Shown in pieces: positions 9,763 through 25,769 of a DNA stretch of 64,000 nucleotides. Both the position numbers and the translations under genes were made by a program. Within the stretch, counting starts at the first letter, position 1; every line of letters starts with the position of its first letter. Under the pieces are notes generated by a model. It saw nothing but the letters and a program-made list of their open reading frames with translations, ran no database searches and was not told the DNA's origin. The DNA comes from Methanoregulaceae archaeon (GTDB lineage: Archaea; Halobacteriota; Methanomicrobia; Methanomicrobiales; Methanospirillaceae): assembly GCA_021371995.1 (NCBI GenBank), contig JAJFVA010000005.1, positions 1 through 64,000 on the forward strand. The letters run 5' to 3'.

Positions 9763-11030
9763 AAGGATATGAAGTGCTCGCAAGGGCACTTTACACCAGT
9801 GCAGATCACTGCTATGCTGTCCCCGGATACCCGGTCACCGAGCTAGCCAGAGATACCCGTGCCGAGATGGTGGGTGCAGAAAAGGTCGCCCTCGAGTATG
9901 CTCTCGGTGATTCGATATCAGGTAAAAGAGCTGCTGTGATCATGAAGAATGTGGGGCTCAATGCCTGTGCTGACCCCCTGGTCCAGGCAACCACTCAGGG
10001 CCTGATTGAGGGAGTTGTGATTGTCGCCGGTGATGATCCCGGGGCAGAAGCATCGACAAGTGCGTTGGACTCCAGATACTATGGCGAGCTGGCGCAGGTC
10101 CCTGTGCTTGAACCGGGCCCTGAGGTCTGTGCCCGGAGTGTGGAAGCGGCGTTCTCTGCATCGGAGGAATTTTCCCGCATTGCACTCCTTCGTATAACCC
10201 CCCCTCTGATTTACGGTGATGCAGTGGCAGAAACGGTTCCCCGGAAAAAAGGTGCCGGACGGCTTGCAGATCCCGGTCTCACGATGAGGGGGAGGGTGGA
10301 TCTCGCCGACTCACGTCTCCGCGGGATGTTTGAATGGTCCAGGAATAGCGGACTGAACCGCATGGAGGGTGGAGTTGCGGGGGTGGGTGCGGCTGCCGGG
10401 GACTCGCGTATCGTTACTGTGTACCCTCCTCCTGCTGATTCCGCCTCCTTTGAACTCATCCATGAGATCGGGAGACCTTTTGTCTCTGAACACCGGAGGA
10501 TCATACCACCTGCCGGGACTCCTGTTCCCCAGACTTCAGAGAGCAGGGGTTTTTACCGGACTTTCTGCCGGAACTGCCCCTTCATCCCATTATTTGATAT
10601 CCTTAAAAAGAGGGGGATGCAGGTGATCCCGGATGCAGGATGCTCAATCCTTGCCATGAATCCACCCTACCGCATTGCCCTTGCAAGCTATGGCCTTGGT
10701 AGTGCCATCGGGGTTGCTGCCCGAAGCACGAGAATAGCCCTGATCGGCGATTATGCACTCCTGCATTCGGGCATCCAGAGCCTGATCGATGTATATGAAA
10801 AGGGCCTCCCCCTCCTGTGCATCGTGCTTGAGAACCAGTGCATGGGTATGACCGGGGGACAGCAGGCCCCTTCCCCCTGCAATTATATCCGTTGGGCAAA
10901 TCCCCAGATTGTCAGGGCATCGGATACAGGACTGCTTGAAGAACTGCTTACCGTGCCGGAAAAGCCTGTAACTGTCGTAGTACAAGGGACCTGCCCGGAA
11001 GGGAGACATCATGAAACCGTGGAATGTTGA
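9759..11030 (+). CDS. IorA-like thiamine-diphosphate enzyme lacking the ferredoxin domain
   Basis: Homologue of the alpha subunit of indolepyruvate:ferredoxin oxidoreductase, but only 423 residues (IorA is about 600). The N-terminal pyrimidine-binding domain has EMVGAEKVALEYALG, and the C-terminal pyrophosphate-binding domain has IGDYALLHSGIQ followed by VLENQCMGMTGGQQ, the GD...N thiamine-diphosphate motif. FCRNCPF replaces the CPGCP segment of IorA. The C-terminal two-cluster ferredoxin is absent and no IorB gene adjoins, so electron transfer to ferredoxin is unlikely. It overlaps aksA by 20 bases. A non-oxidative 2-oxoacid decarboxylase is the natural reading, and 2-oxosuberate, the product of the neighbouring Aks enzymes, is the natural substrate (inference). 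Confidence 0.85.
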   Translation: MKGYEVLARALYTSADHCYAVPGYPVTELARDTRAEMVGAEKVALEYALGDSISGKRAAVIMKNVGLNACADPLVQATTQGLIEGVVIVAGDDPGAEASTSALDSRYYGELAQVPVLEPGPEVCARSVEAAFSASEEFSRIALLRITPPLIYGDAVAETVPRKKGAGRLADPGLTMRGRVDLADSRLRGMFEWSRNSGLNRMEGGVAGVGAAAGDSRIVTVYPPPADSASFELIHEIGRPFVSEHRRIIPPAGTPVPQTSESRGFYRTFCRNCPFIPLFDILKKRGMQVIPDAGCSILAMNPPYRIALASYGLGSAIGVAARSTRIALIGDYALLHSGIQSLIDVYEKGLPLLCIVLENQCMGMTGGQQAPSPCNYIRWANPQIVRASDTGLLEELLTVPEKPVTVVVQGTCPEGRHHETVEC

Positions 11031-12135
11031 GATCTGTGACGTAACCTTGAGGGATGGGGAGCAGACACCAGGTGTTTCGTTCTCCTGCGAAGAAAAACAG
11101 GAAATCGCTTCAAAACTCGATGAGATAGGAGTCGATGTGATAGAGGCAGGGTTCCCCATCGTATCGCCCTACGAGAAACATTGTGTGAAAACTATTGCGG
11201 GGATAGGGCTTGATGCCCGGATCTGCTGCCTCGCACGGGCCCGTAAAAGTGATGTCGAGGCAGCGCTTGACTGCGGCGTGGATATGGTGAGCATTTTCAT
11301 CGCGACCTCGGATCTCCATATAAAACACAAGTACCGCAAACCGAAGGAGCAGGTGCTTGATGAAGCTCTCCTCATGGTTGACCTTGCAAAGGACCATGGA
11401 ATTGACGTTCGTTTTGCAGCTGAAGATGCCTCACGTACCGATATGGAATTCCTCATCCAGGTATATCAGGGAGGTGCTGAACGGGGTGCAAACCTCCTCA
11501 GCTTTGCCGATACCGTCGGCTGCCTTGTGCCCATGCAGATGTTTCGGATCATGAGCCGGCTTGTATCCGCGGTACGTAAGCCATTCTGCGCCCACTGCCA
11601 CAATGACATGGGCTGCGCCACGGCTAACACGATCACTGCTGCGGAGGCGGGTGCGTTCCAGCTCCATACAACAGTCAACGGGATTGGCGAGCGGGCCGGG
11701 AATGCAGCGCTCGAAGAGGTGCTTGTGGCGCTTCGCATGAACGGGGGAATCGAGAGGTATGATCTCTCCCATCTCAGTGGGATTTCAATGATGGTCCAGG
11801 AATATTCAGGCATTACCCTCCAGAAGACAAAAGCGGTGGTGGGGGAGCACGCATTCTCCCATGAGAGCGGCATCCATATCGCTGCGATACTTGAAGATCC
11901 CAAGACCTACGAGTATTTTCTGCCTGAAATGGTCGGGGGGCAAAGGCGTTTTATTCTCGGGAAGCACACCGGGAAAAAGGCGCTTGAACACATAGTGGCA
12001 ACGCTCGGCTACTCCCTGAATGAACAGCAGATCTGCAAGGTGCTTGACGAGGTGAAAGAGCTCGGGGAGAGCAAGTGCGGGATTACCCCTGAGACCCTCA
12101 CCGCCCTGATCCGGCATGTCAGGAAGGAGCAGTAA
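11011..12135 (+). CDS. aksA: Homocitrate synthase family enzyme of coenzyme B biosynthesis
   Basis: Condenses acetyl-CoA with 2-oxoglutarate and its longer homologues to extend the chain toward 2-oxosuberate. The protein has 374 residues with DVTLRDGEQTPGVSFS at the N-terminus (catalytic Arg and metal ligands), HCHNDMGCATANT (metal-binding His pair) and NGIGERAGN. The family also includes isopropylmalate and citramalate synthases. The assignment to AksA rests on close association with aksD, aksE and aksF and on length, which lacks the LeuA regulatory domain. It starts inside the upstream thiamine-diphosphate gene. Confidence 0.9.
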   Translation: MKPWNVEICDVTLRDGEQTPGVSFSCEEKQEIASKLDEIGVDVIEAGFPIVSPYEKHCVKTIAGIGLDARICCLARARKSDVEAALDCGVDMVSIFIATSDLHIKHKYRKPKEQVLDEALLMVDLAKDHGIDVRFAAEDASRTDMEFLIQVYQGGAERGANLLSFADTVGCLVPMQMFRIMSRLVSAVRKPFCAHCHNDMGCATANTITAAEAGAFQLHTTVNGIGERAGNAALEEVLVALRMNGGIERYDLSHLSGISMMVQEYSGITLQKTKAVVGEHAFSHESGIHIAAILEDPKTYEYFLPEMVGGQRRFILGKHTGKKALEHIVATLGYSLNEQQICKVLDEVKELGESKCGITPETLTALIRHVRKEQ

Positions 12136-12138
12136 ACG

Positions 12139-13356
12139 ATGACCTCCCTCTCCGAACGGATTCTCTCCGGAGTTGCAGGCGAATATGTGGACCGGCCGGT
12201 CGACCGGGCATATGTTCACGACGGTACCGGAGTCCTGACCCTGGAAACATGGCGGGCGCTTGGCACCGGCGAGATTGCCAATCCTTCCCGGTTCTATGTC
12301 CTCTTCGATCATATCATCCCGGCCAACAACTCGATGACAGCTGACCTCCAGCATGATCTACGGAAATTTGCTGTAAATTCGGGGCTCCAGTTCTCTGATT
12401 CCGGTGGCGGGATCTGTCACCAGCTGATGGGAGAGGGGATTGCCCTGCCCGGGGAGATCATTGCCGGTGCCGATTCGCATACCTGTACTCTCGGTGCATT
12501 TGGTGCATTTGCCACAGGTGTGGGGGCAACCGATATGGCCGCGATCCTCGCTTCGGGATCGACGTGGTTCCGGGTGCCTGAGACAGTAGGCATGGTTCTT
12601 TCAGGGAACCTCCGCGGTGATGCCGAAGCAAAAGACCTTGCCCTCACGTATGTTGCTCGGCTTGGCATGGATGGCGGTACTTACTGTGCCCTTGAATTTG
12701 TTGGAGATGGAGTCTCGTCCCTCTCCATGGACTCCCGCCTTACTCTGTGTAACCTTTCGGTAGAGACCGGTGCAAAAACGGGCATATGCTATGCTGACCG
12801 TGTGACCAGGAAGTATCTCAGGTTGTACAATCGTGAAATCGTGATGCAGGATCCCCCGGACCTCACCTACAGTCGTGAATATTGCTTCGATCTTGCAGAT
12901 ATCGGGCCGGTCATTGCGGTGCCGCCTCGTGTTGATACCATCCGTCCTGTGGATGATCTCGCAGGGATCCCACTCGATCAGGTCTTTGTCGGTACCTGTA
13001 CAAACGGGAGATACGAGGACCTTTCCCGGTTTGCAAAGATCGTCCGCGGAAAAAAGGTTAAGGTCAGAACGATAATCGGGCCGGCTTCACAAAAAATCCT
13101 CCTTATGGCTGCCCGGACCGGTGTCCTTTCCGATCTCCTCGAAGCAGGGTGCACGATCCTGCCTCCCGGCTGCGGACCGTGTCTTGGGGCTCATATGGGG
13201 GTGATTGGTGAGGGGGAAGTCTGCCTCTCTACATCGAACAGGAATTTCAGAAACAGGATGGGGGTGGGCGGAGAGATCTATCTTTCCTCTGTCGCCACCG
13301 CTGCAGCATCAGCGCTTCGGGGAGAAATAGCAGTTCCTGGAGGCAGCAGGGTATGA
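12139..13356 (+). CDS. aksD: Homoaconitase large subunit
   Basis: [4Fe-4S] hydro-lyase large subunit that interconverts homocitrate, homoaconitate and homoisocitrate and their longer homologues. It has 405 residues with GADSHTCTLGAFGAFATG, FVGTCTNGR (first cluster Cys) and PPGCGPCLG (other two cluster Cys). It begins three bases after the aksA stop and overlaps aksE by four bases (ATGA). Isopropylmalate isomerase shares the fold; the small subunit gene next door decides in favour of homoaconitase. Confidence 0.92.
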   Translation: MTSLSERILSGVAGEYVDRPVDRAYVHDGTGVLTLETWRALGTGEIANPSRFYVLFDHIIPANNSMTADLQHDLRKFAVNSGLQFSDSGGGICHQLMGEGIALPGEIIAGADSHTCTLGAFGAFATGVGATDMAAILASGSTWFRVPETVGMVLSGNLRGDAEAKDLALTYVARLGMDGGTYCALEFVGDGVSSLSMDSRLTLCNLSVETGAKTGICYADRVTRKYLRLYNREIVMQDPPDLTYSREYCFDLADIGPVIAVPPRVDTIRPVDDLAGIPLDQVFVGTCTNGRYEDLSRFAKIVRGKKVKVRTIIGPASQKILLMAARTGVLSDLLEAGCTILPPGCGPCLGAHMGVIGEGEVCLSTSNRNFRNRMGVGGEIYLSSVATAAASALRGEIAVPGGSRV

Positions 13357-15960: not shown

Positions 15961-16803
15961 ATGGTAAGAGTGGGTGTACATGTTTCAATTGCCGGAGCTA
16001 TCTCAAAAGCCGTGGGACGTGCAGCTGCTGCAGGGTGTGATACATTCCAGATATTTTCGAGAAATCCGAGAGGATGGGCATTCAGGGATCTCGATCCTGC
16101 CGAAATAACCCTGTTCCGTCAGGAACTCGATGGCAGCAGGCTTTTTCCTGCTGTTGACCATATGCCATATCTGCCCAACCTCGCTACCATGAACCCGGAG
16201 TTTGCTGAAAAATCCAGAATCACGCTGGCCGCAGAGCTCTCGAGATGCGGTATGCTCGGTATCCCATATCTTGTAACCCATCTCGGACATTACGGCGAAG
16301 AGGGGAAAGAGGCCGGGAGACGTCGTGTTACCGGTATGATTAACAATGCACTTGATGAAGTAGACAACCCCGTCCTCCTTCTCCTCGAAAATACAGCTGG
16401 TGAGAAAAACGGGATCGGGAGCAGGTTTGAAGATCTTGGGGTTGTCATAGAAGGGATCGAGAAACCTTCCCGGGTCGGGTTCTGCTTTGATACCTGCCAT
16501 GCCTTCGGGGCAGGGTATGACCTTCGTTCTCTCGGTGGCCTGGAGGATACCCTGAACCGGTTTGATGAAACCCTTGGCCTCAGGGAGATACGACTGGTCC
16601 ACCTGAATGATTCAAAAGGTGATCTTGGCTCCGGGCTCGACCGCCACGAGCATATCGGTCTTGGTTACATCGGGGAGGAGGGATTTTTACAGATCCTCTC
16701 CCACGAGGTTTTCCGGAATCTCCCCCTCATCTGTGAGACCCCCGTCGATGAACGAAGGGATGATGCAGGAAATATCCGGAAAGTCCGTGAGCTTGCCGGT
16801 TGA
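15961..16803 (+). CDS. nfo: Endonuclease IV (AP endonuclease)
   Basis: Zinc-dependent apurinic/apyrimidinic endonuclease of base excision repair. It has 280 residues in the AP2Ec TIM-barrel family. Recognisable segments are GVHVSIAGAISKAV, FQIFSRNPRGW, LVTHLGHYG, LLLLENTAGEKNGIG, CFDTCHAFGAGYD, VHLNDSKGDLGSGLDRHEHIG and ICETP; these contribute the His, Glu and Asp ligands of the three zinc ions. A GGAGATC site lies eight bases before the ATG. It stands alone, with a long untranslated leader and an empty 390-base stretch behind it. Confidence 0.96.
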   Translation: MVRVGVHVSIAGAISKAVGRAAAAGCDTFQIFSRNPRGWAFRDLDPAEITLFRQELDGSRLFPAVDHMPYLPNLATMNPEFAEKSRITLAAELSRCGMLGIPYLVTHLGHYGEEGKEAGRRRVTGMINNALDEVDNPVLLLLENTAGEKNGIGSRFEDLGVVIEGIEKPSRVGFCFDTCHAFGAGYDLRSLGGLEDTLNRFDETLGLREIRLVHLNDSKGDLGSGLDRHEHIGLGYIGEEGFLQILSHEVFRNLPLICETPVDERRDDAGNIRKVRELAG

Positions 16804-17192: not shown

Positions 17193-17396
17193 TCAGGATT
17201 CCCGGACTTTAAACCGGGTACATTCTTTCAGCAGATTTTCATAGTGCTCATGGGTGAGAGAGCGATCGGCCACCCTGCCCAGTGCATCCTCTATCGACTT
17301 TGTGAGTGCGACGCACTCATCTCCCTTCACTCCTTTCACATGGACGGTCACGTTCCCGTCCCTGTCAACCTGAATTTCAAGCTCCTGTATATCCAT
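17193..17396 (-). CDS. DUF2997-type small protein, last gene of the Ycf35/Ycf46 operon
   Basis: A 67-residue protein with the family pattern of a short beta-strand pair followed by a helix: QELEIQVDRDGNVTVHVKGV, then GDECVALTKSIEDALGRV. DUF2997 proteins are known mainly as neighbours of DUF1257/Ycf35 genes in bacteria and cyanobacteria, and both are present here. It starts 40 bases after the Hsp70-like gene. Function is unknown; the conserved Cys in GDEC and its size would suit a substrate, carrier or small adaptor (inference). Confidence 0.8.
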   Translation of the reverse strand: MDIQELEIQVDRDGNVTVHVKGVKGDECVALTKSIEDALGRVADRSLTHEHYENLLKECTRFKVRES

Positions 17397-17436
17397 GTTT
17401 TCTCATCCTCTGCGGGTCAGGCTGGTGTATTCCATT

Positions 17437-19023
17437 TCATGAAAGCCTTGTTACCACGATATTCTCAACAGCCATTCTTCCTGTTCTCATATCCCTTGCC
17501 GATGCGAGAAGCTGGCGGGTCGGATCAATCATGAACCATACTTCAAACCGGGGTTCTCCCTGCAGGGCAGGGGGATCTGCCGGAATGAACGTAGGGTTCT
17601 TTTCGTTCAACCAGACAGCTTCCCGCTCTTCCTCTGCTGCTCCCGAAGTGTCGTTGCACCTGATAACCCCTGAAGACTGGATTACGAGTTCGCGATGCCT
17701 CCCGGCATCCCGGGTACATCTTCCGGAAGGCACCTCATAGACGGGAATTCCCAACTGTGTCTGGCCATCATACGTACCCTGGATTCTGAATCGGGCAACC
17801 GGGCCTTCGCTCGGATACAAGGAACCCCGCCTGATGATTGTCCTCAGGGTGTATGCAGCGGATCTGGCATCCCATACCCTCAAAGCATACTCATTTCGTA
17901 TCCGGTTATCACCCGGGTATATCCTATAAGCTGACGCCGCCCCCATCACCACGGCATCAATCGGGGTGTGCGTGGATATCCTTCCCATCCCAAACCTCTT
18001 ACAGAGGAGAGCCCTCACCGAAGGAATGGCACTGCCCCCTCCTGCAGAAATAACTGCAGAGATAGTGGATTCGGAATAACCGCGTGCGAATGCACTTGCA
18101 AGAGCCCTCTCGATAACCGCTGTGATGCGGGAATAGAATCCATTCTCCGAAAGGAGCGTCTCAAACTCATCTCTTGTCACCAGAACAGGATCCTTTCCAG
18201 GTATTTTCACTGCTGCCTCATGTGTAGCCGAGAGGATCTCTTTTGCCCTTTCACATTCCGGAAGCAGGATCCTGAAAAGATCGTTGGTATTTTTCCGGAA
18301 ACCAGCCCTTTTTATCACTTCACTGCAGAGCCACTGGTCTACCTGTGCACCTCCCAATTGTTCGACAGCATGACCAAGGAGTCTGCACTTGGGCCCTGAC
18401 CCGTCATTCATCAGGGCAGCGACAGAGACATCAAGGGAATCTCCTCCGAGGTCAAAGAATAAAAAGGGCTCCCCAGGCCTGATATCGGGGCAGCAAGACA
18501 GGGCAGCAGCAGTGGGTTCATCGATCAGATGGATTTGGGAGTACCCGTTGCGCGTGGCAAAGCCTGAGACCCATTCGTCAAAGTAATCAAAGGAATCAAC
18601 AGGAACGGCAATCACCAGCCTGGGACGGGTGATGCGGTACTGCTCACATACCCTTGTGAGGAGCTGTGACAGAAATGCCTCCCCGGCTTCCTGGTAACTG
18701 ACGAGAGTATTTCTGATGCGCACCTTCGCCGGGCTCCTGACAGAGATGTAATGAACCATCCATCGAATCATGTCATCGCTGCCGGAATCCCTGTGATCAA
18801 GGGCTTCGGCTCCCGCCCAGATCAAGCCGTCCCAGGAGTACCTGAGAAGAGATGGGATAACGGGAACACTCACTGGCGGATCGATGCTGCAGGTGATTTC
18901 ACGGGACAATCCCCGGACCGGGACAACAGATGGGGTGCTCTGCCCAAGGCGGATCGCTATTTTGGTCGTACTGTTCCCAAAATCTATAGCAACGGTATTC
19001 CCTGCAGATGAAACGCTGTACAT
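17437..19023 (-). CDS. Hsp70/DnaK-like ATPase with short C-terminal region
   Basis: Actin-fold chaperone ATPase of 528 residues, shorter than DnaK (about 610-640). It shows phosphate-1 VAIDFGNSTTKIAI (11-24), the connect motif HLIDEPTAAAL, phosphate-2 LFFDLGGDSLDVSVAAL and adenosine motif SAGGGSAIPSVRALL. A beta-rich segment resembling a substrate-binding domain follows (TLRTIIRRGSLYPSEG), but the helical lid is reduced or absent. I choose the ATG at 19023: it is one base after the WD40 gene stop, behind GGAG, while the longer frame to 19086 lies wholly inside that gene. No dnaJ or grpE adjoins, so it is not the general chaperone but a system-specific one (inference). Confidence 0.87.
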   Translation of the reverse strand: MYSVSSAGNTVAIDFGNSTTKIAIRLGQSTPSVVPVRGLSREITCSIDPPVSVPVIPSLLRYSWDGLIWAGAEALDHRDSGSDDMIRWMVHYISVRSPAKVRIRNTLVSYQEAGEAFLSQLLTRVCEQYRITRPRLVIAVPVDSFDYFDEWVSGFATRNGYSQIHLIDEPTAAALSCCPDIRPGEPFLFFDLGGDSLDVSVAALMNDGSGPKCRLLGHAVEQLGGAQVDQWLCSEVIKRAGFRKNTNDLFRILLPECERAKEILSATHEAAVKIPGKDPVLVTRDEFETLLSENGFYSRITAVIERALASAFARGYSESTISAVISAGGGSAIPSVRALLCKRFGMGRISTHTPIDAVVMGAASAYRIYPGDNRIRNEYALRVWDARSAAYTLRTIIRRGSLYPSEGPVARFRIQGTYDGQTQLGIPVYEVPSGRCTRDAGRHRELVIQSSGVIRCNDTSGAAEEEREAVWLNEKNPTFIPADPPALQGEPRFEVWFMIDPTRQLLASARDMRTGRMAVENIVVTRLS

Positions 19024-19024
19024 C

Positions 19025-21838
19025 TTACTCCTCCACGATCTCAATCTCATATCCCCCCAAAAAGGGGGGTGTTTCGCAAAGAGCAATTGTAGAACGGAGA
19101 GAACCGGTGAGAACTGATTCGATGAACTTCCACTCTCTGGCAGTCACATCCCCGGACCTTTCTGCCCTATGGCGGAATTCCATGACCCGTATGAGATCAT
19201 ACGGGGTTGAGGTTTCTGCGGTCTTTGTAAACGGCAGAACCCAGCTGAGGCATGACCCCCTTTCGTGGGAGGATATCAGATCAGTGTCATCAGTTCCCGG
19301 AATAAGGCCGGTCACGCCCCCTGCATCGCTCCTTAAGAACCGGATGAGGTTGCCCCCCGGGAGCATCCAAATCCCTATCACCCCTGCGTTATCTCCGCTC
19401 GCAAGAATCCGGTTGTCGACAAAGATCAGACTTGTGATTCGATCCGCATGTCCTTTCAGTATGCTGATAAGACCACCGTCCGGAAGGCTCCAGAGACGGA
19501 CGGTGGTGTCCCAGCTTCCGGTGGCAAGGAAACGCCCGTCGGGACTCACAGCCGAAGCGGATACAACATGGGTATGCCCAGTAAGGGTTTCACATGGATT
19601 CCAGGTGCGCACATCCCAGAGCCTGGCAGTCCTGTCCTGCGAAGTGCTGACGAGCATCTCATACTGCGGGACAAATACAAGAGAGGTTATCGGGCTGTTG
19701 TGGCCGGAAAACACGTGCCTTTGTTTGCCTTCCGGCAGAGTATAGATATGAACGGAGGAATCCCACCCTCCTGCTGCACAGAGATTCCCCTCTGTATTGC
19801 AGGCAAGTGCATGGATTGCCCCGGTATGGCCGGAGAGGCGTTTTTGTATTTCCCCTCCTGGAAAGCCTATTAATTCGACCGATCCGCAGGCTCCGGCAAC
19901 AACCCCGCATCTCCCGTCAGGTAGAAGGGCAAGGGCAGTGATCCTCGGAAGGTAACTGTCAATGGTTCCCTTATAACTCCAGTTACGGTCATTCCAGAGA
20001 TGAATATTCCCATGGTCTCCGGTAACCACGACCATGCCGGTAGCAGGTGCATAGGACATCAGCGGACTGTTTCCGCTTCTGCATCCGATATTCTGGATGA
20101 GGCTCCCGTCAACAGTGTCCCGGACTTCGATAATCCCATTCCAACCTATCACGGAAAAGATACCTCCAGAGGAAGAAATACCCCGCACGGGCCCTGTATT
20201 CCCCTTTGTAAACACCGGCGTTCCCCTACCTGAAACCGGCAGGATATGGATTATTCCCGATCGTGACCCTGCAATGAGTGTTGTCCCGTCAGAAGAAAAA
20301 CAAAGTGCGCTCACCCCATCGCTGTGGGCCCGGAAGATGGCATGCTCGCGCCCGTCCGGAAGTGAAAAGAGCCGCACTTTTCCTTCCGTGTCTCCAGATA
20401 CAAGCCATTCCAACCCAGGGGATACAGCGCAGGTGGTTCTTACCTGCAAAGGTTCTCCTGCAATTATCCCGGCAAGCCTGCCGGTTCCTGTATCCCATAG
20501 CCGGAACGGACCCCTTGATGCTGCTGCTATCATAAAATTTTTTTGAGTGTTGACAGAGATGAGCATGACAGGCTTTTTGAGAACAGGATCATCCAAGGGT
20601 ATTTCACGACCACCTGAATCATGGCATTTTACTTCTCCGTTCTGAAACCCCGAACCGAGGATCCCGTCACTACCCGCGGCAAGGACCGTCACTTCCAAAG
20701 GAGGAAGGTGAGGAATCAGGCATCTATGGCCTGAAAGCCAGTCAAGGGCCATAACGGATCCATCAGCCCCCCCTGCATAGAGTAACGGGCTATCAGGGGA
20801 AAACTGGATTGAAGTCACCCGGGTTCCTTCAAAAACCCTGTCCCTTCTTACCTCTCCCGATTGGATATCCATGACCAGCACCGCACCTGTGCCTCCGCCA
20901 CATGCAAGCAGTGGCTCTGACCGGTGAAAGGTAAGGCAGGAGACAGGTTCCACCCCCATCGATATCCGGTGGAGAAGTCCTCCGCCCGGGACCCTCCAGA
21001 TCTCTACGGTGCCATCAGTAAAACCTGCAGCACAGTATCTCCCCTGTCGGTCAAGCGCCATCGTTCCAGCCCGGACCGTGCATCCTGCATGGATAGCAGA
21101 GGGGTTGCCCCCAGGTCCGGGAGATTCGAAGGTATCTGGCGTCGCTGCATACAGTTTTTTCCAGTAATCCCCGTCCCAGTGCACGGGGACGATTCCCGAA
21201 TCCTTCAGCAGGCAGGCGGCAGTATGGGCTGCCGGGAGAGGAGCCCTGAAGAGAATACCGGCAAGAGTAGTCCATTCACCCCGGGCTGCAAGACGTCGTG
21301 CAAGCAGATGGAAAAAATCTGCCGGGAGGACCGCTACCCCTTCACCATGTGAGAGCACCCCAAGAAGCAGCTCTGGTCTCCCCAGGTGCGTCAGTGTCCT
21401 GATGATCCGCACCCGCCGGGACCATGGGGAAGTCAGGTACCCCCTGGTAAGGAGAGGCCGTGACTCATCAGCGTCCATACCGAGATAAGCCTCGAAATTG
21501 CCTGTGAGAAGGAATAGCAGAGCCTTTTCAGTTTCGTCCGATGGGAAATACCCCTCTTTAATGCAGAGTCGTTCAAGGGGCGGGCTCTCCCGCGCGAGAA
21601 CGTATGCACAGCATGCTGCTGCTCCTGTTCCGGATAGACCGGAAAGTGCTCTTCCCGCGGCCGCAGCGACATCAGGATCTGGTGATTCTAATGCGCCTGC
21701 GAGTGCCCGGATCGCAGCCATATCGCCGGCATTTGCGGAACCTTTCAGCTGCAGGGCACCTGCTCTCCATATCAGTCTGCCGATAAGCGGGGTTCTTGAC
21801 CCGACCCGCTGTATCGCAGTCATGCAGCTGTGTGCCAT
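19025..21838 (-). CDS. Large helical-repeat plus WD40 protein (about two beta-propellers)
   Basis: A soluble scaffold of 937 residues. The first 250 or so are alanine- and leucine-rich and look like HEAT-type helical repeats (IRALAGALESPDPDVAAAAG is typical). From about 265 to 900 there are roughly 14 WD40 units, best seen in GHTHVVSASAVSPDGRFLATG and GHNSPITSLVFVPQYEMLVS, each followed by an RLWD or RLWSLP type ending. That is enough for two seven-bladed propellers. A TTG at 21859 could extend it by seven residues. Such proteins bind other proteins; here it may act as sensor or platform for the AAA ATPase and Hsp70 encoded on each side (inference). WD40 proteins are uncommon in methanogens. 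Confidence 0.88.
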   Translation of the reverse strand: MAHSCMTAIQRVGSRTPLIGRLIWRAGALQLKGSANAGDMAAIRALAGALESPDPDVAAAAGRALSGLSGTGAAACCAYVLARESPPLERLCIKEGYFPSDETEKALLFLLTGNFEAYLGMDADESRPLLTRGYLTSPWSRRVRIIRTLTHLGRPELLLGVLSHGEGVAVLPADFFHLLARRLAARGEWTTLAGILFRAPLPAAHTAACLLKDSGIVPVHWDGDYWKKLYAATPDTFESPGPGGNPSAIHAGCTVRAGTMALDRQGRYCAAGFTDGTVEIWRVPGGGLLHRISMGVEPVSCLTFHRSEPLLACGGGTGAVLVMDIQSGEVRRDRVFEGTRVTSIQFSPDSPLLYAGGADGSVMALDWLSGHRCLIPHLPPLEVTVLAAGSDGILGSGFQNGEVKCHDSGGREIPLDDPVLKKPVMLISVNTQKNFMIAAASRGPFRLWDTGTGRLAGIIAGEPLQVRTTCAVSPGLEWLVSGDTEGKVRLFSLPDGREHAIFRAHSDGVSALCFSSDGTTLIAGSRSGIIHILPVSGRGTPVFTKGNTGPVRGISSSGGIFSVIGWNGIIEVRDTVDGSLIQNIGCRSGNSPLMSYAPATGMVVVTGDHGNIHLWNDRNWSYKGTIDSYLPRITALALLPDGRCGVVAGACGSVELIGFPGGEIQKRLSGHTGAIHALACNTEGNLCAAGGWDSSVHIYTLPEGKQRHVFSGHNSPITSLVFVPQYEMLVSTSQDRTARLWDVRTWNPCETLTGHTHVVSASAVSPDGRFLATGSWDTTVRLWSLPDGGLISILKGHADRITSLIFVDNRILASGDNAGVIGIWMLPGGNLIRFLRSDAGGVTGLIPGTDDTDLISSHERGSCLSWVLPFTKTAETSTPYDLIRVMEFRHRAERSGDVTAREWKFIESVLTGSLRSTIALCETPPFLGGYEIEIVEE

Positions 21839-21845
21839 GGGCAGC

Positions 21846-23399
21846 TCAAGTCCCCTCAATCCTCGGGTCGAGCCTGATTCCGGATCCGGTCATATCAGCC
21901 CCCCTGTCAGGAAATGAAGCAGATACTGCCCTCCCCTCTCGGAGCCACATTCTGAGGTGATCAACCGTCTCCCTCTGCGAGACCGACAGGGGTACCTGTG
22001 CGCTCAGTGCCTGGAGGATGTCTTCGGTCGTTATCGTCCGCATGTCCTGGTTGAATGCCTGGTACATCGCATCAATCACGGTCTGCTCGATCTCGGCCCC
22101 CACATACCCGTCAGATGCAATCGCCAGTCTGCCAAGGTCAAATCCTTCGGGGATGCATTTCCGCTTCCTCACATGGACGGAAAAAATCTCCTTTCGTTCC
22201 GCATATCCGGGTAGATCAAGAAAGAAGATCTCATCAAAACGGCCCTTACGGAGAAGCTCTGGGGGCAGGGAAGAGATGTCGTTTGCGGTTGCCACCACGA
22301 AGCATGGGGCGGTCTTGTCCTGCATCCAGGTCAGGATGCTGGCAAAGACCCGCTGGCCGGTCCCGGCATCGCCATTACCGAAGGAAAAAGCTTTCTCCAT
22401 CTCATCGATCCAGAGGATACAGGGAGAGATTGTCTCTGCGAGCCGGAGCGCACGCCTCGTTCTCTCCTCTGACTCCCCGACAAAACTGCCAAAGAGGGCC
22501 CCGACATCCAGCCTGAGAAGGGGCAGGCGCCAGAGTCCTGCGATCATTTTGGCAGTGAGGCTCTTTCCGGTCCCCGGAATACCGATCAAAGCGATCCCTT
22601 TGGGTGACGGTAGTCCGTAATCGCGGGCCTCCCGGGTAAATGCCCGCTCACGCAGGCGAAGCCATTCCTTGAGGGCTGCAAGACCTCCAACATTCTCAGG
22701 AGTCTCGGTCCCGCTATAGAACTCAAGGGCCTCGTTCTGGGAGAGGATGCTCTTCTTTTCAGCCACGACCTCCTCGATATCCCTGTCATCAATCCTTCCG
22801 TGCATCACGATTGCCTTGGAAAATGATCGCCGGGCCTGGTTGAGCGACATGCCGAGTGCCCCCTGGATGAGTTTTTCCCTTCCAAGCGGTGTCAGGGTAC
22901 ACAAAACCCCGCTGCTCCGGATGAGAAGGTCAAGCTCAAACTCAAGTTCCCGCGCATGGGGCGGTGGAAGGTGAAGGATAACACAGTCATCCCGGATCTC
23001 GTCCGGGACTTTCAGCGAGGAGGTTATCACCACAATTGACCGACGGGAATACCTGAGCTTCTGAGCATAGTTCCGGAGTTTCCGTTTTACGGCAGGGTTG
23101 GCCCAGTACTCGTGAAAGTCTTTCAGGATGATAACAGCATTCTCATCGGTCTTTCCAATCTCATCAAGCGCTGTGAGAGGGTCGCGGGTCGGGGCGGAAA
23201 ACTGCTTTCCGGAAAGCTCCTGCCACCCTTCCACGATATCCCATGCCACGCACTGCCGGGGGGGATTCCAGCGGTCGCAGACCTCCTTTATGATCCGAAA
23301 TGCCCGTTCCTCTTCGGGGGAAACGAGTATAATCAGCGTCACGCGTGACCGGAAAGCGAGATCGATCTGGTCCTTTGTGTCTTCATTCCCTTCAGGCAT
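21846..23399 (-). CDS. ycf46: Ycf46-type AAA ATPase
   Basis: A 517-residue AAA protein with an N-terminal half that resembles a degenerate P-loop domain (VTLIILVSPEEERAF; VIILKDFHEYW), then a complete AAA module. The module has Walker A GIPGTGKS (273-280), Walker B CILWIDE (327-333), sensor-1 in VVATANDISSLP and arginine-finger region LLRKGRFDE. This two-part layout is that of Ycf46, named from algal plastid genomes and found with Ycf35 in cyanobacteria. It starts three bases after the DUF1257 stop. The likely role is remodelling or unfolding of a partner, in concert with the Hsp70-like protein (inference). Confidence 0.9.
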   Translation of the reverse strand: MPEGNEDTKDQIDLAFRSRVTLIILVSPEEERAFRIIKEVCDRWNPPRQCVAWDIVEGWQELSGKQFSAPTRDPLTALDEIGKTDENAVIILKDFHEYWANPAVKRKLRNYAQKLRYSRRSIVVITSSLKVPDEIRDDCVILHLPPPHARELEFELDLLIRSSGVLCTLTPLGREKLIQGALGMSLNQARRSFSKAIVMHGRIDDRDIEEVVAEKKSILSQNEALEFYSGTETPENVGGLAALKEWLRLRERAFTREARDYGLPSPKGIALIGIPGTGKSLTAKMIAGLWRLPLLRLDVGALFGSFVGESEERTRRALRLAETISPCILWIDEMEKAFSFGNGDAGTGQRVFASILTWMQDKTAPCFVVATANDISSLPPELLRKGRFDEIFFLDLPGYAERKEIFSVHVRKRKCIPEGFDLGRLAIASDGYVGAEIEQTVIDAMYQAFNQDMRTITTEDILQALSAQVPLSVSQRETVDHLRMWLREGRAVSASFPDRGADMTGSGIRLDPRIEGT

Positions 23400-23402
23400 A
23401 GT

Positions 23403-23798
23403 CTATGTCCACCTCCTTACCACGATCCGTATGGAACCGTCGGGCTCCTCTCTCCTCTCCACCACTGAAAAACCATCATTTTTCGTCTTTTCGAGAATCG
23501 TCCGTTCTGCATACTCTCTTTGGATCCGTGAAAGGGTTCCATCAAGTTCTGAGAGAATCTTATGGTCTCCCCTCCCTATCCCCCACCAGTCCGCAACAAG
23601 ATTGTAGCATCCCTGTGCATCCCGGACAAAACCAATCCCGTTGCCGTCCTTTGTCCGGATCAGGAGGTCAACCGCCCTCACTCCCTGTCGTCCCCGGATC
23701 GAACCTCCCTGGGTCACCTCATATCCGAGTGTATGCAGGGCATCGGTCAGCATGCTCTTGTCTTTCAGCGTGGTCTTTATCCGCGTGAAATGTGACAC
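23403..23798 (-). CDS. ycf35: DUF1257/Ycf35 family protein
   Basis: A 131-residue protein beginning MSHFTRIKT, the hallmark of DUF1257 (Ycf35). It continues with DALHTLGYEV, VDLLIRTKDGNGIGFVRD, YNLVADWWGIG and a C-terminal strand GSIRIVVRRW. Family function is unknown. It overlaps the radical SAM gene by 22 bases and precedes ycf46 by three, so the three are translated together. The pairing of DUF1257 with Ycf46, DUF2997 and an Fe-S protein recurs in bacteria, so this set appears to be a moved functional unit (general knowledge plus inference). Confidence 0.9.
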   Translation of the reverse strand: MSHFTRIKTTLKDKSMLTDALHTLGYEVTQGGSIRGRQGVRAVDLLIRTKDGNGIGFVRDAQGCYNLVADWWGIGRGDHKILSELDGTLSRIQREYAERTILEKTKNDGFSVVERREEPDGSIRIVVRRWT

Positions 23799-24394
23799 AA
23801 TTCACCCTCCATGTGGTATGAATCCGGCAGCAGCCCTCTGTCAGGAAAACCGGTGACGGTTATCTCTCCATCAGGATGAACAGTATATTCCACTGCTCTG
23901 CCACCATACCAGCATTCACGCTCTCTCCCCCTGAGCAGTCCGGAAAGGTGCACCAGTTCCTGGTTTTCTGATGACCGTAGCGGGTCCGTGCAATGCAGTT
24001 CTTGAATATATGGTCCTGCAACGAGCAGATCGGTTACTTCAAGCAGGGCATCCCAGGATCTCCGTCCTTTTCTCCGGATTGCATCATAGGAATATCCGGA
24101 GAATGTCACAACGTTCAGATCGTGCTCTCTAAGAATTTGTGCGCACTCTGCGAGGGCACCTGACTGACAGAAGGGCTCGCCACCGGAAAAGGTAATCCCC
24201 TCGACCCCATCCGTCCCGAGAATCTCATCGGCAAGATCCCCGGATTCAATCGTTATTCCCGGGTGAAAACTCCAGAGTTCCTTATTAAAACAGCCGCTGC
24301 ACCGGATCGGGCAGCCCTGCGTCCAGATGACCGAGCGCAGGCCGGGACCGTTGACGGTCGAATAATGCTGCACTTCTGCACAATTGATCTGCAT
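23777..24394 (-). CDS. NrdG-like radical SAM protein, first gene of the Ycf35/Ycf46 operon
   Basis: A compact radical SAM enzyme of 205 residues with TQGCPIRCSGCFN (C28, C32, C35), the size and motif of glycyl-radical activases, plus GITFSGGEPFCQ, the SAM-binding GGE motif. No glycyl-radical enzyme (no anaerobic ribonucleotide reductase NrdD) is in the window, so a role as NrdD activase is not supported by context. It may modify a partner of the operon, for example DUF2997 or Ycf35 (inference). Upstream lie a TATA-like element and a perfect palindrome at 24490-24511. Confidence 0.87.
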   Translation of the reverse strand: MQINCAEVQHYSTVNGPGLRSVIWTQGCPIRCSGCFNKELWSFHPGITIESGDLADEILGTDGVEGITFSGGEPFCQSGALAECAQILREHDLNVVTFSGYSYDAIRRKGRRSWDALLEVTDLLVAGPYIQELHCTDPLRSSENQELVHLSGLLRGRERECWYGGRAVEYTVHPDGEITVTGFPDRGLLPDSYHMEGELCHISRG

Positions 24395-24761: not shown

Positions 24762-25769
24762 ATGAAAGCAAGGCTTGACGGCGCCTTTGTAAGGCTCGGG
24801 AGTGAAGGGCGTTCCCTCTACGACCAGAGCGGATACGGAAGACCGGAAGAGGGAGGACTCCGGCTGGCGCCCGAAGAGGCTTGTTACCTCCTCTACAGGA
24901 AACGTATTGAGATCCCGGGATACGACTTCGACCAGCTCTCAGCACATTTTGCAAAAACCCCTGAATTTTTACGAACATTCCTTGTGTACCGCGATCTCCG
25001 CGAAAGGGGTTATGCTGTACAGACCGGCCCCCATGATTTCCGTGTCTTCAGGAGAGGGCAGAAACCGGGGAGCGGGCAGTCCCAGTACATGGTACGTGTT
25101 CTCTCCGAGCGGGATGTCGTGGATTTTCCCAAGATGATCCGGGAAACGACGTCATCGTCCCATATGCGAAAACAGCATGTCCTTGCCATCGTTGATGACG
25201 AAAGCGAGCTCACCTACTATGAAATTAAGGTCCAGGGCCTTGCGTCTGCATCGCAAAAGATGACCCTGCCCCCACTTATCGGAGTTCTTGTTGGCAATTC
25301 TGCGATCATTCACCCCTCCCTGGAGGAACGGGAATCTCTTGTATCGTTCGGGATGACTCTTGATGATGAGCGGCTGATCCTATCCTCTCTTGAGATCATA
25401 TACTTGGCGAGGGCCGGGGCGCTCTCGCTCCGGAATGAAGAAGGAGAAGTGTCGTCCGACCGGTTTTATGCGATGGTTGCCGATCAGGACAAGGAGCTTG
25501 CACAGAAAGCACCAGTATATGCCAATCTCAGGCAGCAGGGGTATATTCCCCGGACAGGCTATAAATTCGGGCATCACTTCAGGGTATATTCAGGTTTAAA
25601 GCCCCACTCCGAGATGCTCGTCCATGCCATTGCAGCAGAGGGCAAAACCCCAATGAGCAGTATCTCCCGGTCTGTCCGCCTCGCCCATAGTGTGAAAAAG
25701 AAGATGTTGTTTGCGGCACAAGGTACTACGGGAATCCAATACGTCGAATTTGCCCGTATCAAACTGTGA
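24762..25769 (+). CDS. endA: tRNA-intron endonuclease (fused-repeat homodimer type)
   Basis: Cuts introns from pre-tRNA at bulge-helix-bulge sites. At 335 residues it is the two-repeat form that works as a homodimer, about twice the size of the single-repeat homotetramer type. The C-terminal repeat carries the catalytic triad: Tyr of HHFRVYSG (near 276), His of KPHSEMLVH (near 282) and Lys of HSVKKKML (near 312). The Tyr-His loop is shorter than in well-known enzymes. The N-terminal repeat (AFVRLGS... YLLYRKRIEI ... FRVFRRG) lacks the triad as expected. It leads a probable operon with trpS, pheS and pheT. Confidence 0.94.
   Translation: MKARLDGAFVRLGSEGRSLYDQSGYGRPEEGGLRLAPEEACYLLYRKRIEIPGYDFDQLSAHFAKTPEFLRTFLVYRDLRERGYAVQTGPHDFRVFRRGQKPGSGQSQYMVRVLSERDVVDFPKMIRETTSSSHMRKQHVLAIVDDESELTYYEIKVQGLASASQKMTLPPLIGVLVGNSAIIHPSLEERESLVSFGMTLDDERLILSSLEIIYLARAGALSLRNEEGEVSSDRFYAMVADQDKELAQKAPVYANLRQQGYIPRTGYKFGHHFRVYSGLKPHSEMLVHAIAAEGKTPMSSISRSVRLAHSVKKKMLFAAQGTTGIQYVEFARIKL

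Follow-up and report, generated by a model that had tools for sequence, protein, structure and literature searches.

A six-gene operon with a Ycf46-type AAA ATPase, a lidless Hsp70-like protein and a radical SAM protein in a Methanoregulaceae archaeon: a possible protein-remodelling machine

The operon and its proteins

The DNA considered here, the first 64,000 nucleotides of contig JAJFVA010000005.1 of a Methanoregulaceae archaeon (assembly GCA_021371995.1; called the window in the following), carries a six-gene operon on the minus strand (17193-24394). It encodes, in order, a radical S-adenosylmethionine (SAM) protein, the DUF1257 protein Ycf35, an AAA ATPase of the Ycf46 type, a scaffold of HEAT-like and WD40 repeats, an Hsp70-like protein and a DUF2997 protein (Table 1). 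A first-pass annotation had placed six minus-strand genes here, and a check of the open reading frames (ORFs) confirmed all of them; the spacings it gave (-22, 3, 7, 1 and 40 bases) are exact when the HEAT/WD40 gene starts with the ATG at 21838 and the gene for the Hsp70-like protein with the ATG at 19023. The families it had named from motifs were all recovered by Pfam (radical SAM, DUF1257, AAA, WD40, HSP70, DUF2997), but the DnaK signatures it had listed among these motifs turned out to be degraded in this strain. No NCBIfam model scored above its cut-off for any operon protein.

The radical SAM protein matches Fer4_12 (1.3e-29) and Radical_SAM (5.7e-7) and has the NGPGxR and CxxxCxxCxN motifs of a radical SAM enzyme, the latter kept in 49 of 51 homologues. 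Both DUF1257 (PF06868, 6.9e-19) and DUF2997 (PF11211, 3.8e-16) are recognised above their cut-offs, and the DUF1257 protein shows the MSHF start and the IGF and ADWW motifs of Ycf35. Its AlphaFold model (predicted local distance difference test score, pLDDT, 84) bears only a weak SRPBCC/Aha1-like resemblance (template modelling score, TM, about 0.3-0.44) and has one viral match, A0A7S5REL3 (TM 0.73). Five residues of DUF2997, Gly14, Gly25, Cys28, Thr32 and Gly40, do not vary in any of the 46 members aligned, Cys28 being the single invariant cysteine and residing in a GxxCxxxT motif. The scaffold is matched by WD40 (3.4e-53), and its N-terminal 256 residues give a weak HEAT_2 hit below the cut-off (E 0.0012); a strong one (1.5e-19) is present in a Planctomycetota homologue. 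The AAA protein is matched by AAA (5.4e-29) and AAA_lid_3, the Hsp70-like protein by HSP70 (2.4e-19). The papers on DUF1257 and DUF2997 that were found in the open-licence literature give no function. Full-length DUF1257 proteins, 27-35% identical and annotated as hypothetical, also occur in cyanophages (Prochlorococcus phages P-SSM2, P-SSM5 and P-SSM7, and marine single-cell viruses).

Purifying selection acts on each of the six genes, with ratios of nonsynonymous to synonymous substitution (dN/dS) of 0 to 0.42, and their rates of evolution are uneven. Compared with locus L042, the AAA protein is 69% identical, the Hsp70-like protein 32% and the scaffold 26%, the neighbouring TrpS and EndA being 86% and 58% identical. 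The scaffold and the Hsp70-like protein are thus the fastest-evolving parts (dN/dS up to 0.42), and the AAA protein gives values of 0.04-0.12.

Table 1. Features of the operon and its chromosomal site (positions in the window)
Feature	Position	Strand	Basis
Radical SAM protein (Fer4_12 / NrdG-PflA activase type), first gene, 205 aa	23777..24394	-	Pfam, motifs
Radical SAM 4Fe-4S motif CPIRCSGC	24290..24313	-	sequence
Ycf35 / DUF1257 protein, 131 aa, GTG start	23403..23798	-	Pfam
Ycf46 AAA ATPase, 517 aa; C-terminal AAA intact, N-terminal half without Walker A	21846..23399	-	Pfam
AAA Walker A, GIPGTGKS	22560..22583	-	
AAA Walker B, DE	22401..22406	-	
HEAT-like and WD40 scaffold, 937 aa; about 1-249 helical, remainder WD40 propellers	19025..21838	-	Pfam
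Lidless Hsp70-like protein, 528 aa; nucleotide-binding domain and beta substrate-binding domain, no alpha lid	17437..19023	-	Pfam; host DnaK alignment
Residue 90 of Hsp70-like protein, Val where DnaK has catalytic Lys70	18754..18756	-	
Degenerate phosphate-2 motif of Hsp70-like protein, DLGGDS (DnaK: DLGGGT)	18436..18453	-	
DUF2997 protein, last gene, 67 aa	17193..17396	-	Pfam
DUF2997 Cys28	17313..17315	-	invariant in 46/46 aligned members
Flank: nfo-like endonuclease IV, one site edge	15961..16803	+	AP_endonuc_2 1.1e-45
Flank: endA tRNA-splicing endonuclease, other site edge	24762..25769	+	tRNA_int_endo 1.3e-48

Occurrence in the host family

In a first survey, DUF2997 was found in 12 of 61 genomes (that of the window included), and in each of the 12 the set of six is complete and identically ordered, which is far beyond chance. 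A search of 295 genomes from the phylum found DUF2997 in 12 and DUF1257 in 11; those with both, 11 in number, all belong to the Methanoregulaceae. The additional DUF2997 genome (G089) belongs to a different family of this phylum and carries a smaller, alternative set, made up of genes for the AAA protein, a superfamily 1 helicase, two unknown proteins (510 and 671 amino acids), DUF2997, a DUF1257-like protein and a radical SAM protein (locus L163). All 13 fully flanked methanogen loci carry the six genes and none has grpE. The family loci adjoin endA, nearly all of them lying between nfo and endA, and these two genes are direct neighbours in the operon-free genomes G001 (a near-complete congener) and G015 (a single contig). 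The six genes are gained and lost as one unit.

Distribution outside the methanogens

When GTDB genomes were scanned with an alignment of the AAA protein, 80 loci were returned, among which identity to the window's protein falls from at least 54% to 46%. In the AAA tree the group with at least 54% identity forms one clade of 59 entries (Shimodaira-Hasegawa-like approximate likelihood ratio, SH-aLRT, 99), within which Methanoregulaceae and other Methanomicrobiales make up a single subclade (100). The other members of the clade come from Chloroflexota, Actinomycetota, Planctomycetota, Verrucomicrobiota, Cyanobacteriota, Bacteroidota and Calditrichota and from one metagenome-assembled genome (MAG) of the Pseudomonadota. 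The full set is marked in Chloroflexota, Actinomycetota and Planctomycetota, and versions that are cut or lack the radical SAM gene occur in Cyanobacteriota and Verrucomicrobiota. Profile searches of the 32 fully flanked bacterial loci gave DUF1257 and the HEAT/WD40 scaffold at 26 each, DUF2997 at 21, the radical SAM gene and the operon-type Hsp70 at 17 each, GrpE at 11, and all five partners at 13. The first-pass annotation had staked its reading in part on the six families co-occurring beyond close relatives of this strain, and they do so far beyond. As isolates of Streptomyces, Actinomadura, Longilinea and Levilinea carry the set, MAG contamination cannot explain it.

Some genomes keep the AAA gene apart from most of its partners. 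In Thermanaerothrix a second locus has a scaffold-rSAM-DUF2997-DUF1257-Hsp70 arrangement (rSAM, radical SAM gene), in Calditrichia rSAM, DUF2997 and DUF1257 are found together elsewhere in the same genome, and in Flexilinea this is true of rSAM, DUF2997 and hsp70. Outside the clade, looser relatives retain Hsp70, GrpE, DUF1257 and DUF2997 in Nostocales; Tharpella-like MAGs have Hsp70, DUF1257 and DUF2997, and Chlorobiaceae Hsp70 with the AAA protein. Plasmids of Bacillus, Paenarthrobacter and Planktothrix combine the AAA gene with DUF2997 and usually DUF1257 and lack hsp70; those of Bacillus and Paenarthrobacter also encode a 4Fe-4S protein.

This distribution leaves little room for the idea that the six genes are chance neighbours without joint function. 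Nothing speaks for it beyond the unknown function of two members, and it is hardly credible when the genes are linked time and again in several phyla, genomes with split loci retain the remaining genes, the whole unit is either present or absent at one site and every gene is under purifying selection. The suggestion that the set reached methanogens by transfer stands, as the genes are confined to one family of the phylum and to one clade of the AAA tree; the direction is not fixed by this tree, which does not resolve the deepest branches of the linked clade. The alternative suggestion of an ancient anaerobic role does not fit carriers such as Streptomyces, Actinomadura and cyanobacteria.

Several loci call for separate comment. 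The HSP70 matches of four Flexilinea-type loci (L070-L073) do not enter the locus counts, being ordinary full-length DnaK (4.1e-212 for L071, which was checked) and not of the operon type. In these as well as in L075 and L077, a gene for an SprT-like metallopeptidase is situated at or near the scaffold gene, downstream of it. L071, from a goat-gut Anaerolineaceae MAG, has an EcoRI-like restriction enzyme and a methylase encoded between the Ycf46 AAA and DUF1257 genes (10564-12420). On Treponema succinifaciens plasmid pTRESU01 (L027, 7357-9512), genes of contractile-injection and phage-baseplate type surround those for a Ycf46-like AAA protein and a radical SAM protein. Two apparent fusions were rejected: the N-terminal 600 residues of a presumed HEAT-Hsp70 fusion in Dactylosporangium (L086, ORF of 1131 residues) match no scaffold and resemble a high-GC out-of-frame extension, and in L088 the DUF1257 domain covers residues 406-508 only, the start being probably internal.

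The AAA motor and the Hsp70-like protein

Full-length matches, at about 40-84% identity, to plasmid and genome homologues that reside beside DUF1257 and DUF2997 place the AAA protein, with its two-part build of a characteristic N-terminal domain and a C-terminal AAA domain, in the Ycf46 family. It belongs to a separate clade therein, whose members share 54-84% identity with one another and about 43-46% with canonical Ycf46. Walker A, Walker B and the arginine finger are intact in 76 of 77 homologues. Among sequences with solved structures (PDB) the closest are NVL and p97/Cdc48; these unfoldases share with it the intact catalytic residues, while the operon protein has only one clearly active AAA domain. 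A degenerate second AAA domain in the N-terminal half is suggested by its weak resemblance to an AAA domain (hhalign E 0.0086, probability 5%), a match that is not significant. In viral contigs the AAA scan returned no relative. Ycf46 has been tied to CO2 utilisation in Synechocystis (2015, Planta 241:145, as cited in PMC12172450), and in the open-licence literature nothing on Ycf46 together with Hsp70 was found beyond a plastid genome.

The host genome encodes an ordinary DnaK and GrpE elsewhere, so that the operon protein is a second, divergent Hsp70. The beta substrate-binding domain is present and the alpha lid absent in all homologues compared. In the numbering of E. coli DnaK, which is used here, Lys70 is a catalytic residue. 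In this strain it is replaced by Val and DLGGGT has become DLGGDS, Glu171 being kept, so the nucleotide-binding domain departs from the DnaK type, to which nearly all bacterial homologues conform. Lys70 is retained in 35 of 35 bacterial proteins versus 10 of 22 distinct proteins from the host family, and the strict phosphate-2 motif in 8 of these 22; in the congeneric loci L018, L020 and L021, Lys70, Glu171 and the phosphate-2 motif are all lost. Purifying selection nonetheless persists, with dN/dS values in close pairs of 0.19-0.33 for degenerate versus 0.17-0.22 for intact proteins. The first-pass annotation had assumed two remodelling ATPases, which does not apply to this strain, whose Hsp70 has neither Lys70 nor an intact phosphate-2 motif. 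Here, and in roughly half of the Hsp70 proteins of the Methanoregulaceae, it is probably a non-cycling holdase or scaffold.

The radical SAM protein and its replacement by a ferredoxin

The best NCBIfam model for the radical SAM protein is NrdG (TIGR02491, E 1.9e-26), and NrdD is encoded in all eight family genomes tested. It may therefore be asked whether the protein simply activates the class III ribonucleotide reductase of the methanogens, its neighbours being unrelated. Plain NrdG identity was rejected, as the score of 92.9 bits lies below the cut-off of 126.1 and as genomes G015 and G031 contain NrdD but neither the operon nor a strong Fer4_12 protein; since the gene also travels with the other five across phyla, this explanation is very improbable. 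In the genome of the window (G000) the class III reductase itself is apparently split into a 727-residue NrdD without the RVxGY glycyl-radical motif (L162, C11, 2736-4919) and a separate 120-residue zinc-ribbon protein that carries RVTGY (L161, C28, 3244-3606), and a two-piece NRDD match is found in all eight host-family genomes tested.

The Fe-S protein differs in cyanobacteria. Of the cyanobacterial loci in the clade, two have full flanks and contain hsp70 (L025 and L055), and both lack the radical SAM gene; two cyanobacterial genomes with Hsp70-linked sets also possess DUF2997-DUF1257 followed by a 4Fe-4S ferredoxin gene, matching the known fed7 cluster. In Synechocystis, Fed7 from the DUF2997-ycf35-fed7 cluster interacts with a DnaJ-like protein, and the cells require Fed7 to tolerate oxidative, metal and iron-limitation stress (PMC4284462). 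The small DUF1257-DUF2997 pair is thereby tied to chaperones and an Fe-S protein independently of the operon. The cyanobacterial cluster together with Ycf46 (slr0374) shares the DUF2997, DUF1257 and Ycf46 families with the operon and likewise has an Fe-S protein adjoining DUF2997-DUF1257. It differs in having a ferredoxin in place of the radical SAM protein, and no AAA, hsp70 or scaffold gene lies within about 1 kb on each side of the two clusters inspected.

These arrangements also bear on a maturation machine, in which an NrdG/PflA-type radical SAM enzyme would place a radical or a covalent modification on DUF2997 (at Cys28), DUF1257 or an unlinked enzyme while the AAA and Hsp70 proteins open the client; the first-pass annotation had suggested one of the two small proteins as such a client. 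The activase-type motifs NGPGxR and CxxxCxxCxN are nearly always kept, the invariant cysteine of DUF2997 would offer a target, and the radical SAM gene adjoins DUF2997 in many loci. This cysteine persists, however, in cyanobacterial sets without a radical SAM gene, which argues against DUF2997 being only a substrate of the enzyme; DUF1257 has no conserved RVxGY motif, and glycyl-radical enzymes of PF01228 are absent from the eight family genomes tested. We regard maturation as rather unlikely.

A role in defence?

An anti-phage or other conflict system, in which the HEAT/WD40 and Hsp70-like proteins would sense an invader's protein or RNA and the AAA and radical SAM proteins would act as effector, is suggested by analogy. 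Chaperone-gated conflict systems (eLife 2020, PMC7159879) and CoCoNuTs (PMC11090510) couple a motor, either AAA or GTPase, to Hsp70, GrpE, beta-propeller or HEAT proteins, one class including a radical SAM enzyme; in CoCoNuTs the Hsp70-HEAT proteins have degenerate Walker motifs, and the Hsp70 of this strain is degenerate too. Fast evolution of the HEAT/WD40 and Hsp70-like proteins relative to the AAA protein with dN/dS of up to 0.42, patchy presence (12 of 61 relatives), occurrence on plasmids and weak PADLOC matches of the AAA protein to IetA are all in keeping with such a role. The motor of the known systems is MoxR, a TRAFAC GTPase or McrB, and the eLife class has a MoxR-vWA or TRAFAC GTPase core with a variable effector; our operon has a Cdc48-like AAA protein, no vWA domain and no recognised nuclease, protease, TIR, pore or other effector domain. 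Ycf46 is not named in PMC7159879, and no DUF1257 or DUF2997 model is among the PADLOC matches, which for the operon are generic (AAA IetA, viperin-like, WD40) and define no defence system. When 70 flanking proteins of bacterial loci were compared with 70 of control loci (PADLOC, E <= 1e-20), no enrichment of defence genes was seen, both sets matching a handful of families with at most one member each; with matches as few as in controls there is no sign of defence islands. In the host family the operon occupies one fixed chromosomal site with housekeeping neighbours, and cyanobacteria retain the DUF1257-DUF2997 core pair, as algal plastids do ycf35 (PMC5940233). A conflict role is thus unlikely, though it retains some weight because the receptor-like parts evolve fast. 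The first-pass annotation had left maturation, repair, quality control and conflict side by side; its remodelling theme is strengthened by the Cdc48-like AAA protein, the Hsp70-like protein and the GrpE of bacterial versions, and its conflict branch is weakened.

A candidate protein-remodelling machine

Because unrelated bacteria repeatedly carry these genes together, we take the operon to encode a real protein machine. Our preferred explanation, to which we give a probability of roughly 45%, is a single machine dedicated to remodelling particular client proteins, for their quality control or rescue, its job probably being protein quality control. The HEAT/WD40 protein and the beta substrate-binding domain of the lidless Hsp70 would recognise and hold a client, which the Ycf46 AAA protein, as a Cdc48-like ring motor, would unfold or extract using ATP. 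The DUF1257-DUF2997 pair would serve as adaptor joining this motor to the Fe-S protein, a radical SAM protein here and the ferredoxin Fed7 in cyanobacteria, which would provide a redox or radical step that senses or repairs oxidised or metal-damaged clients. The gene set and its linkage, the intact AAA protein, the kept or lost residues of the Hsp70, the purifying selection and the exchange of the Fe-S protein are observations; we infer that the six proteins form a complex, that damaged proteins are its clients, and the role and chemistry proposed for the radical SAM enzyme.

In bacteria the Hsp70 would cycle with its own GrpE and therefore work like the ClpB-DnaK-GrpE pair, which likewise places an AAA unfoldase beside Hsp70 and GrpE, a likeness known here from gene linkage. 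Unlike that pair, the operon has an AAA protein of the Cdc48 and not the ClpB type, a lidless Hsp70 with ATPase residues lost in about half of the family and an additional HEAT/WD40 scaffold and Fe-S proteins. Several observations weigh against our explanation. This strain itself has lost the ATPase residues of its operon Hsp70, so that a classical chaperone cycle is unlikely in it, and the operon contains no J-protein gene; a fold search of the PDB with the DUF1257 model gave nothing at E <= 0.1, and the low confidence of the DUF2997 model (pLDDT 66) makes it too poor for use.

More tentatively, and with less than even odds in our view, the operon might represent an undescribed class of radical-enzyme-coupled unfoldase, in which clients would be handed to a radical SAM protein or ferredoxin, via the DUF1257-DUF2997 adaptor, by a lidless Hsp70 working with a beta-propeller receptor and a Cdc48-type motor, the Hsp70 being a pseudo-ATPase receptor in many methanogens. 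No description of the six-gene unit was found in the open-licence literature; subscription journals may hold one. An Hsp70 that has lost its ATPase residues in several lineages and yet remains under purifying selection makes up an unusual case of a pseudo-chaperone. Algal plastids and cyanobacteria retain the genes ycf35 and ycf46, for which no settled molecular role was found in the open-licence literature; they are now tied, across several phyla, to Hsp70 and GrpE, to a scaffold of HEAT and WD40 repeats and to an Fe-S enzyme, and thus to a machine that can be tested.

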